Under the pieces are notes generated by a model, which worked only from the letters and a program-made list of their open reading frames with translations, was not told where the DNA came from and made no database searches. This document shows positions 41,612 through 49,896 of a stretch of 64,000 bases of DNA, piece after piece. The DNA is from Methanohalophilus levihalophilus (GTDB lineage: Archaea; Halobacteriota; Methanosarcinia; Methanosarcinales; Methanosarcinaceae). The DNA lies in contig NZ_JAGGLK010000001.1 in assembly GCF_017874375.1 (NCBI RefSeq), positions 1 to 64,000 of the forward strand. The letters run 5' to 3'. Position 1 is the first letter of the stretch. Every line of letters starts with the position of its first letter. Position numbers and translations under genes: made by a program.

Positions 41612-43798
41612 GTGATGGAAGAGGGGGTTTGTCTTCATGAATTCATATATGATGACGCCGGCAATGCCATAGACTATGCAATAACTGATATTAATCCCGC
41701 ATACGAACTCATTCTTGGTTTGAAAAGGGAAGATGTTGTTGGAAAATGTGCAACTCAGGTTTATGGTTCAACGTCCCCATATAAGGATATTTTTTTGGAG
41801 GTTGCTGAATCCGGTATTTCCACACGTTTTGAATCATATTTCCCGCCAATGGACAAACACTTCAGCATTTCTGTATTCTCATCTAAAAAAGGTACATTTT
41901 GTACAGTATTTAGCGATATCACGATCCAAAAAAAGAATGAACAAGAGCTTCAGGAAGCAAAAAAGAGTCTTGAGTTTGCAATGGAAGTAGCTGAAAATGG
42001 ATTTTGGGACTGGAACCTGGATACCGATGCAGTCTTTTGCAGTCCTCAATGCATGGCAATGCTGGGTTATACAGCTGATGAATTTCCACAAACCCTTGAA
42101 TTCTGGGTAAGTCTCTTGCATCCTGAAGATCGTGAGATGGTGCTTCAGACGATTGAAGACTATACTCACCAAGCCCGGCCCTATAGCATAGAGTGCAGAC
42201 TACGTACTAAAGATCGAGGATGGCAATGGTTCTCAGATTCTGGTAAATCTTTTGAGTTAGACGAAAACGGTCACCCTCACAGGGCAATTGGGGTTCTAAG
42301 TGATATAAGTGAAAGAAAAGCACATGAGGCAAGACTAAGGGAAAGTCGGGAGCGTTATAAAGGTCTGGCTGAAAGCACGCCTGTCGGTATCCTGACCTGC
42401 GACACAAAAGGCAATATCGATTATGTAAATCCGAAATTACTGGAGATTCTTGGGTCCCCGGGTGCAGAGGCAACCAAGAAAATCAATCTTTTTACTTTTC
42501 CTCCGGTTGTAAAACTTGGCTTCCCTGGATATCTGGAAACTGCTTTTGAAACAGGTATTGAAATCACTTTTGAGGATCAATATAAGACCAAATGGGGTAA
42601 GTCCCTTCATTTCAGGTGTCACATTAATCCGATAAAAGTAGATGGTTCTGTAAAAGGTGCAACCGTAGTATTTGATGATATTACTGATCGAAAGAATGCT
42701 GAACTGCGCCTTCAGGAAAGTGAAGAATTATATCGGGCTGTAACAGAAAATAGCCAGGAATGCATCTTCATTCTGCAGGATAACAAGGTTATTTTTGTTA
42801 ATGGTACTTTGTGTGGTATGCTTGGTTACACAAAAGATGAAATTTATTCGATGGATATTTGGGACTTTGTTCATCCTGAGTGCATACACGATGTGCAGAC
42901 AAAAATTAACTCTATTTCAATAACAAATCCTGTGTCGTCAGTTTGTGAAGCTAAAATTCTTACTAAAGATTACAGGACAATAGAAGCAGAGTTTTCCATA
43001 ACTGCGACTCTTTACAAAAGCAGGCCTGCTTTGATAGGAGCCTTCAGAGATATAACACATCGAAAAAGTGCAGAGGAGGCTCTCATTCAGGGAAAAGCCC
43101 TTGCAGAAGAAGCAAGTCGTACTAAATCCGAGTTCCTTGCCAACATGAGCCATGAACTCAGAACACCTCTAAATTCCATCATTGGTTTCTCCCAGATGCT
43201 TGGTACAAATTCTTTCGGTAACCTTAACGAGAAACAAAACAAGTACCTTTCAAACATCCGGCACAGTGGTGAGCTTCTTCTTGAAGTGATTAACAATATT
43301 CTGGATATCTCAAAGGTCGAAGCCGGAGTCATGGAACTAAATATTGAAAACATACTAATCCATGAGATTCTGGAAAGCACGGAGACACTGGTTCATCCTC
43401 TTGCCTTGAAGAAGAATATCACTGTAGAAATCGATGTAAATCCTCGGAATCTCGAGATATGTGTTGACAGGATCAAATTAAAAGAAATAATCTATAACCT
43501 CCTTACAAATGCTATCAAGTACACTCCTGAAGGGGGCAGAGTTTGTATCAAAACCGGTTACGTTAATAATGAACTGCGGTTTTCAATTTCTGATAATGGA
43601 ATTGGCATTCCTCCCCATATGCAGGATGATATCTTTGAACCGTTCAAACAGATAGGTTCATTTTCCAACAAAGAATACAAAGGAACAGGTTTGGGACTTG
43701 CACTCGTGAAAAAGTATGTAGAACTGCATGATGGTCGTATCTGGGTGGAAAGTGAGGAAGGAAAAGGTAGTGCGTTCAGCTTTACAATCTCCGATTAG
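41612..43798 (+). CDS. Multi-PAS soluble histidine kinase, ends in TAG
   Basis: About 728 residues, no TM. Four PAS-type sensor domains occupy residues 1-105, 110-235, 240-365 and 370-490, each closing with a DIT/DIS-type motif (FSDITIQKKNE, VLSDISERKAHE, FDDITDRKNAE, FRDITHRKSAEE). HisKA is intact with FLANMSHELRTPLNS. HATPase_c has LLTNAIKYTPEGG, DNGIGIP and GTGLGLALVKK. The GTG 41612 or ATG 41615 starts cut into the first PAS cap helix. The frame is open to 41507 and a good RBS lies at 41545, so the real start is unresolved. It is the only gene in the window ending in TAG (43796-43798), with an in-frame TGA two codons later. Confidence 0.85.
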   Translation: MMEEGVCLHEFIYDDAGNAIDYAITDINPAYELILGLKREDVVGKCATQVYGSTSPYKDIFLEVAESGISTRFESYFPPMDKHFSISVFSSKKGTFCTVFSDITIQKKNEQELQEAKKSLEFAMEVAENGFWDWNLDTDAVFCSPQCMAMLGYTADEFPQTLEFWVSLLHPEDREMVLQTIEDYTHQARPYSIECRLRTKDRGWQWFSDSGKSFELDENGHPHRAIGVLSDISERKAHEARLRESRERYKGLAESTPVGILTCDTKGNIDYVNPKLLEILGSPGAEATKKINLFTFPPVVKLGFPGYLETAFETGIEITFEDQYKTKWGKSLHFRCHINPIKVDGSVKGATVVFDDITDRKNAELRLQESEELYRAVTENSQECIFILQDNKVIFVNGTLCGMLGYTKDEIYSMDIWDFVHPECIHDVQTKINSISITNPVSSVCEAKILTKDYRTIEAEFSITATLYKSRPALIGAFRDITHRKSAEEALIQGKALAEEASRTKSEFLANMSHELRTPLNSIIGFSQMLGTNSFGNLNEKQNKYLSNIRHSGELLLEVINNILDISKVEAGVMELNIENILIHEILESTETLVHPLALKKNITVEIDVNPRNLEICVDRIKLKEIIYNLLTNAIKYTPEGGRVCIKTGYVNNELRFSISDNGIGIPPHMQDDIFEPFKQIGSFSNKEYKGTGLGLALVKKYVELHDGRIWVESEEGKGSAFSFTISD

Positions 43799-43859
43799 AA
43801 CAAGTGAAGTGCATCGATCATTTGATCAATATTCCTAAAAATTGACCAGAAAAAACTTG

Positions 43860-47917: not shown

Positions 47918-48856
47918 ATGCATTTGGAACTGGATTCTGATTTAATATCAAAAAACAATCTCGTATCTGCAACGGTTTTTTCGTTTACTGCCCTTGTAAT
48001 TTTAATAACAATTGGAATGCTCACACCCCTTATTGTAAGGTTCACTATAGGTGTGGAACTCAGCATGGATGCTGAATATTTCAATCTCCGTACAGGTCCA
48101 TTTGCGATACTTCTGACCTTGATTTTATCCGCCTGTCTTCTTGCAGGAAAATACTCGCAAAAACAGGTTGGCCTATTTGTTGGAGGCGTTATCTTAGTTT
48201 CCCTTCTATTTCTGTTTATCTCACCGACGGGAGACTGGAAAACAGATTTAATCCTGCCAATTTTTATGGGCTCGCTTCTGGTAGTCTTGTACAGATTGGT
48301 TACGATTACAAAAGAGCGACAAGGAAACGCACTTGTCCGGGGAATAGGGGCACATATTATTCATATAGGTATCCTATTGATTATTTTTGGTGTAATTGCC
48401 AGTTCTGCTATGAAAGTTGAAGACTCTGCAATACATTCAGAGAACACTCCCGTTTAGTTTGAGAATCTGGATTATAACATAATAGTTACAGGTATGAGTT
48501 CAGGTTATGAAGGAACTCCCTACAGGGAATATCCGGGTTCCTCTTATGTAACTCACATAGGATTTGATGTCTACAAAAATGGTGCCTACTTTGATTCAGG
48601 ATCACTTGATTACATAACCGATATTAAATGGAGGCAGACTTACACAACCACTTACATAAATCGCGGTCTTGGCGAGGAGCTTTTCATAGCACCGCGCGCG
48701 ATTGATGAGGAAAATAGTGCTATTGATCTTTATGTTCGTGTCGTGCCTTTCATAACTTTTGTCTGGGCCGGAATTTCACTGATGCTTCTGGGAATGATAA
48801 TACTTCTTGCTCCGGGATTGCTTCCAGCAGGTGATAAAAGGGAGGCTAAAAAATGA
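47918..48856 (+). CDS. ccmF: CcmF C-terminal half, with in-frame UAG
   Basis: One frame runs from 47918 to TGA 48856, broken only by TAG at 48455-48457 (codon 180). The N-terminal part has five TMs; the last (GIGAHIIHIGILLIIFGVI) matches the His-bearing helix of CcmF. After the TAG the frame continues FENLDYNIIVTGMSSGYEG through a soluble beta region (about 181-280) to a final TM (FITFVWAGISLMLLGMIILL). This is the order of the CcmF C-terminal half. Translation reinitiating at ATG 48494 would split the periplasmic domain. Read-through as pyrrolysine is the simplest reading; a nonsense mutation is the alternative. It overlaps the next gene by 4 bases (ATGA). Confidence 0.75.
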
Positions 48857-49896
48857 ATTTCGGTATGGTTTTTATATGGGTCTCATTTATTCTTGCGCTT
48901 GGAGCTGCGGTTCTTTCCAGTTCATATGCCGGTAAGTTCCAAAACAAACAATTATCTGGAAGGCTTGAGATTGCAGCTTTTTCCTTGATTTCACTTGCTT
49001 GCATCCTGATCCTGTATTATTTGAACGCAGTGAATGCTTCCTATGCCTATGTGTACCAGCATTCAAGTCTGGATCTTCAATGGTACTACAGACTATCGGC
49101 AATGTGGGCAGGACAGCAAGGTTCACTCTTGTTGTGGGTATGGGGAATAAGTGCAATATTGCTTATTATCAAATACAAATCAAAAAACCTTCCTGAAAAA
49201 TTGATGGAACACACAAGAACAATTTCCTTTCTCATAATTTCAGTATTTTTACTGGTTCTTGTGCTGGATAATCCATTCGCCGTGTATTATGCAAAAGCCC
49301 AGTCTATAGCTGTATCCAACTGGAATCCTTTTGTTCATGCTTATCATCTGACAGATGGTCAGGGAATGAATCCACTCCTTCGCAACCCATGGATGGCTGT
49401 CCATCCGCCAGTTTTGTTTATGGGCTATGCAGCTTTCACAATTCCGTTTGCTGCAGCGATTTCCGGAATGCTGCTAAATGATGATGGATGGAAGAATATT
49501 GCCGGGAATTGGATGAGAGTAGGTTGGCTTTTCCTGACTGCAGGAATAGGTCTCGGGGGTTTCTGGGCCTATGAAGTTCTCGGATGGGGGGCATGGTATT
49601 GGTCATGGGATCCGGTTGAGACTTCTTCACTCATTCCATGGATTGCTTCGACTGCTTACCTGCATACGCAATACAGCAAAAAGGAAGCTTTTAGGTTTAC
49701 TGCACCACTACTTTCGGTTTATTCATTTATACTGGTGGTCTTTGCAACATTTGTGACCAGAAGTGGTATGTGGGTTTCCGTACACTCATGGCAGGACTTC
49801 ACTGCAGAAAGCCTCTTGATTGGCTTGTTTTTAGTAACAATTACTGTTTCAAGCACTTATCTTCTTGCAAAAAGGTACTTTGAAGAACAAAGATAA
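48853..49896 (+). CDS. ccmF: CcmF N-terminal half (heme lyase, WWD domain)
   Basis: A 347-residue membrane protein corresponding to the first half of bacterial CcmF, which attaches heme to apocytochrome c. Typical motifs occur in order: AGQQGSLLLWVWG (about residues 92-104), GMNPLLRNPWMAVHPPVLFM, and the tryptophan-rich heme-binding WWD segment LGWGAWYWSWDPVETSSL near 238-255. About nine TMs are predicted. The protein stops where the second half of CcmF would begin; that half is encoded by the gene just upstream, so the gene order is reversed. This points to cytochrome c maturation in the organism. Confidence 0.9.
   Translation: MNFGMVFIWVSFILALGAAVLSSSYAGKFQNKQLSGRLEIAAFSLISLACILILYYLNAVNASYAYVYQHSSLDLQWYYRLSAMWAGQQGSLLLWVWGISAILLIIKYKSKNLPEKLMEHTRTISFLIISVFLLVLVLDNPFAVYYAKAQSIAVSNWNPFVHAYHLTDGQGMNPLLRNPWMAVHPPVLFMGYAAFTIPFAAAISGMLLNDDGWKNIAGNWMRVGWLFLTAGIGLGGFWAYEVLGWGAWYWSWDPVETSSLIPWIASTAYLHTQYSKKEAFRFTAPLLSVYSFILVVFATFVTRSGMWVSVHSWQDFTAESLLIGLFLVTITVSSTYLLAKRYFEEQR

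Follow-up and report, generated by a model that had tools for sequence, protein, structure and literature searches.

An in-frame UAG codon in the ccmF1 gene of Methanohalophilus levihalophilus, probably decoded as pyrrolysine

The ccmF1-ccmF2 locus

The window considered here is a stretch of 64,000 nucleotides (positions 1 to 64,000 of contig NZ_JAGGLK010000001.1) from Methanohalophilus levihalophilus, a salt-loving methanogen of the Methanosarcinaceae whose genome measures 2.1 Mb and which shares its GTDB genus with Methanohalophilus profundi. On the plus strand, at 47918–48856, lies ccmF1, the gene for the C-terminal half of a split CcmF, named after ccmF1 (MA3305) of Methanosarcina acetivorans (PMC9084895). 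It runs for 312 codons and closes with a TGA at 48854–48856. Its sole internal stop is a TAG at 48455–48457, codon 180, the predicted codon for pyrrolysine (Pyl), the rare 22nd amino acid, so that the reading frame confirms the original prediction of a frame unbroken save for this triplet.

Do the two sides of the TAG belong to one protein? They had been described as a single CcmF C-terminal half, and this description holds. Read through, CcmF1 matches the Pfam family CcmF_C (PF16327) over residues 9–297 (E 2.4e-13), the joined protein scoring 50.5 bits against 29.8 and 19.1 for the separate pieces, and its homologues align throughout. This homology places it among the split archaeal CcmF1 proteins. 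The predicted model (mean pLDDT 87) contains five long helices, a beta domain and a final helix, in agreement with the anatomy proposed earlier (a His-bearing helix, a beta domain outside the cytoplasm and a last transmembrane helix), and it resembles CcmF of T. thermophilus (6zmq; fold E 1.9e-11, profile E 3.7e-6). In this model, codon 180 falls in a surface loop (residues 176–185) joining strands 1 and 2 of the extracytoplasmic domain. The tryptic peptide predicted to span it is VEDSAIHSENTPV[Pyl]FENLDYNIIVTGMSSGYEGTPYR, where the residue before Pyl is Val 179.

Directly 3' of ccmF1 stands an intact ccmF2 (48853–49896, plus strand), encoding the N-terminal half of CcmF (Cytochrom_C_asm, PF01578, E 3.1e-38). 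Its ATG overlaps the ccmF1 TGA in the sequence ATGA, an overlap that probably couples ccmF2 translation to ccmF1 readthrough. The Ccm pathway is represented by this neighbor and by CcmE, found in the genome, in which no second intact CcmF1 copy was detected. With one CcmF1 copy and CcmE present, a working Ccm pathway is to be expected.

The arrangement is that of M. acetivorans, in which ccmF1-ccmF2 form a split cytochrome c synthetase with the same order of halves and the same CcmABCEF pathway, and in which deletion of ccmF1 strongly lowers holo-cytochrome yet leaves some (PMC9084895). Unlike the M. acetivorans gene, the one described here carries an internal UAG, a feature known only from this genome and from Methanococcoides among the 79 family genomes with CcmF1.

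Distribution and history of the UAG codon

CcmF1 homologues occur in 79 of 112 Methanosarcinaceae genomes and were aligned across the whole frame. Eight of the 79 have an in-frame stop, which is TAG in every case; internal TAA or TGA was found in none of the 79. The seven other TAG-bearing genes all come from Methanococcoides species, M. vulcani among them, with the TAG in the identical alignment column, and all eight genomes belong to genera in whose samples TAG terminators are few or absent. A base error is very unlikely, since eight assemblies have TAG in the same column.

The closest CcmF1 is that of Methanohalophilus sp. DJKA121 (75% identity); cultured Methanohalophilus stand at about 53%. 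After the TAG, comparison with DJKA121 gives a dN of 0.144 and a dS of 2.2, a value so large that it is rough, and amino-acid identity with this nearest relative is 79% after the TAG and 71% before it. Likewise, dN is well below dS in every pair of Methanococcoides CcmF1 genes, where the large dS values are again rough. Purifying selection acts on either side of the TAG in the window gene, which has no other lesion. The shared column, the kept frame and this selection together weigh heavily against chance and against a sequencing error.

The original prediction had proposed aligning homologues to see which residue sits at codon 180. The answer is TAG in the seven Methanococcoides, Ser (TCA) in the nearest relative, Ser, Thr or Ala in other Methanohalophilus, and His in one Methanococcoides clade (CAT in M. 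seepicolus). The column of codon 180 accommodates 12 residue types and ranks as the 14th most variable of 288 CcmF1 columns, in keeping with the earlier view, which the predicted loop also favors, that the site is a soluble loop open to many residues.

A tree of CcmF1 places the window gene among Methanohalophilus and apart from Methanococcoides, and the distribution of TAG on it requires at least three changes. Two gains and one loss are the preferred history; alternatively, there may have been one old gain followed by several losses. If about 15 columns are as tolerant as this one, two gains at a single column are only a mild coincidence.

Pyrrolysine machinery and UAG usage

A first check suggested for the prediction was whether the genome carries the pyl genes, and the full set is there in one cluster: pylT, with its CUA anticodon, pylS, pylB, pylC and pylD lie at about 319–324 kb of contig C2. 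The assignment of pylB is backed by a radical SAM domain; pylC and pylD were identified from their place in the cluster and their sequences. A search for the PylC-like N-terminal Pfam family gave no match in the genome though pylC sits in the cluster, which makes this family a poor probe.

How often does UAG still end a gene in this organism? In a sample of 456 kb out of the 2.1 Mb, TAG closes 6 of 346 called genes (1.7%). In genomes with normal use the share is 11 to 15%: 10 of 67 genes in one resembling Methanolobus and 8 of 70 in one resembling Methanomethylovorans. Three of the six TAG-ended genes, one of them a methylamine methyltransferase, continue coding beyond the TAG, where their coding scores are good, and their family profiles extend across it. 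Domains running across an internal TAG in the genome are MTTB, NosD/beta-helix, TPD, PAS and TPR. The sampled 456 kb therefore have the profile of an archaeon using a Pyl code, in that UAG seldom terminates and several genes are read through it; ccmF1 has that of a candidate UAG-encoded Pyl protein, with pylTSBCD present and both coding character and homology continuing through the UAG.

Termination at UAG has not vanished altogether. One aRF1 scores over the cut-off in the genome, and pylB (L033:13244-14299, minus strand) ends in TAG, with a 39-codon extension over pylC that is non-coding. This looks like a true UAG terminator, the sole one among the six TAG-ended genes; a pylB ending in TAG is also known in M. 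burtonii (PMC2933860). Together, aRF1 and the pylB end indicate that UAG still terminates in places and that readthrough may be partial.

Other genes with TAG were met along the way. A PAS histidine kinase in the window (41612–43807), one of the six TAG-ended genes, ends in TAG-AAT-AAA-TAA, with a TAA backup two codons after the TAG, and an isocitrate/isopropylmalate dehydrogenase (L043:5185-6180), also one of the six, has a TAG ten codons before its end, the tail completing the Pfam profile. Two overlapping neighbors, a TPD-domain protein and an HhH-GPD endonuclease (L048:190-984 and L048:977-1618, minus strand; G000:C3, about 60.2–61.6 kb), each have an in-frame TAG of their own; the TPD gene has homologues throughout the family, and all relatives found are free of the stop. 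A NosD/beta-helix gene (L044:10297-11754), a second PAS histidine kinase (L039:16666-17676) and a TPR gene (L041:6443-7069), all on the minus strand, carry a TAG within the recognised domain and are further Pyl candidates. In another genus, the Methanohalobium-like g6, none of 73 called genes of genome G012 (samples L078-L082) ends in TAG, so that this genus also looks UAG-sense; its CcmF1 has no UAG.

How is codon 180 read?

The explanation that we favor, with a probability of roughly 0.9, is that ccmF1 is intact, that UAG 180 is decoded as Pyl to give full-length CcmF1, and that the site is near-neutral. PylS would charge tRNA-Pyl (CUA), which would read codon 180 as pyrrolysine and meet little opposition, given how seldom this organism ends a gene with UAG. 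Full-length membrane protein would then be made, and the ATGA overlap could let ribosomes that finish at the ccmF1 TGA start again on ccmF2. In archaea, the two halves together form the cytochrome c heme lyase of the CcmABCEF pathway. Efficient readthrough, the coupling of ccmF2 and a neutral role are what we infer. As for Pyl insertion itself, as originally proposed, readthrough is supported in every comparative test, while the identity of residue 180 follows from the pylTSBCD machinery.

No PYLIS-like fold stands out downstream of the TAG beyond shuffled sequences (z -0.19); such an element is not required for UAG decoding (PMC9499178, PMC2933860). In M. acetivorans, a foreign UAG is read at 20–30% (PMC2933860).

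Does the residue matter for the enzyme? Pyl 180 is probably tolerated rather than catalytic or required, because the column is highly variable and the sister gene has Ser. The position lacks the conservation of a catalytic Pyl of the methylamine methyltransferase type, and its hypervariability gives no indication of a special role in heme ligation. With its place in an exposed beta-domain loop, Pyl 180 would most likely have arisen and persisted by near-neutral drift, and UAG 180 looks like a by-product of life in a group that reads UAG as sense almost throughout.

The opposite answer is that selection keeps Pyl 180. Its imine could be a reactive group at the surface of the heme lyase, for instance an electrophile close to heme or apocytochrome; or the residue could act as a switch tied to pyrrolysine supply, by which cytochrome c maturation, with ccmF2 coupled, is made Pyl-dependent. 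Such selection would account for the UAG in one column of two genera, which takes three or more changes on the tree, and for its retention in seven Methanococcoides species. We regard it as unlikely, given the 12 residue types of the column, the Ser, Thr, Ala and His of close relatives, and a predicted location in a beta-domain loop rather than in the invariant His-bearing helix.

If UAG is not read through, translation could stop there and restart at the ATG at 48494–48496 (plus strand), making two proteins and a three-piece CcmF. This ATG lies 36 bases past the TAG and opens a frame of 120 codons, yet no clear Shine-Dalgarno sequence precedes it, and the codon, internal Met 193, is common to most stop-free CcmF1 homologues. 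A restart would also part strands of one beta domain in the model (E167–175 from E186–198), much as the original prediction had objected, and would leave unexplained why the stop found there in relatives is always UAG and never TAA or TGA. On the conserved Met and the split domain the restart was rejected, and it is now very improbable.

A pseudogene, in which UAG ends CcmF1 and the remainder decays, is hardly credible: there is one nonsense codon, and the residual holo-cytochrome of the M. acetivorans ccmF1 mutant (PMC9084895) means that a partly defective gene could be tolerated, but strong purifying selection past the TAG, the lack of any other lesion, a column and frame kept across Methanococcoides and the intact ccmF2 downstream all oppose it. 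Nor is it likely, to any appreciable degree, that the codon is read by a tRNA for a canonical amino acid (Lys, Gln or Tyr), whether near-cognate or suppressor; this is opposed by the dedicated CUA tRNA, its synthetase and the Pyl biosynthesis genes, and by tRNA-Pyl being the established UAG decoder in the family (PMC2933860).

Relation to known pyrrolysine proteins

Pyl in a CcmF protein had been put forward as new; this must be given up in so far as Pyl outside methyltransferases is already known, in Thg1 and transposases (PMC2933860, PMC8211752). A 2021 review names only these two as Pyl proteins beyond the methyltransferases (PMC8211752). Further candidates come from two computational surveys, whose main texts do not contain the word "cytochrome" (PMC1242214, PMC3639795), and a search of open literature turned up no paper that mentions both pyrrolysine and CcmF. 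Since UAG hardly ever terminates genes in this genome and several unrelated genes are read through, CcmF1 belongs to a large set of such cases. It is a well-supported case of Pyl outside the methyltransferases, comparable to Thg1, with no new heme-lyase chemistry.

The tRNA-His guanylyltransferase Thg1 of M. acetivorans is a close parallel, and a tolerated Pyl 180 fits the neutral origin accepted for Pyl in that enzyme (PMC2933860). The two differ in spread: the Thg1 UAG is confined to M. acetivorans, whereas that of CcmF1 occupies one column in two genera and recurs in most Methanococcoides examined. With MtmB, MtbB and MttB, CcmF1 shares a single in-frame UAG and the PylS/tRNA-Pyl decoder, and an MTTB-family UAG gene is present in the genome. 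In those enzymes, however, Pyl is catalytic and its place conserved, while in the hypervariable CcmF1 column other residues serve.

The genome also resembles the Pyl code reported for Methanococcoides, in that UAG is depleted as a terminator and internal UAG occurs in many unrelated genes. A 2025 Science paper on this code reportedly describes archaea that read all TAG codons as Pyl, and is said to include proteomics of Methanococcoides burtonii and Pyl in very many families. If so, CcmF1 is one more instance of the Pyl code.

A membrane-bound heme-lyase subunit is hereby added to the proteins predicted to contain pyrrolysine. The gene can also serve as a test case for comparison: two genera have UAG in the same column, a matched sister bears Ser, and in one clade of Methanococcoides UAG was lost again. 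Where ccmF1 carries the UAG it will be annotated as truncated, and cytochrome c maturation there probably depends on pyrrolysine synthesis.

A last observation concerns the splitting of CcmF itself. Two genomes of genus g4 hold a distant match (G034:C36:16347-17186 and G134:C226:11266-12120) in a frame of about 680–690 codons that looks like an unsplit CcmF, and both have it in addition to the split CcmF1.
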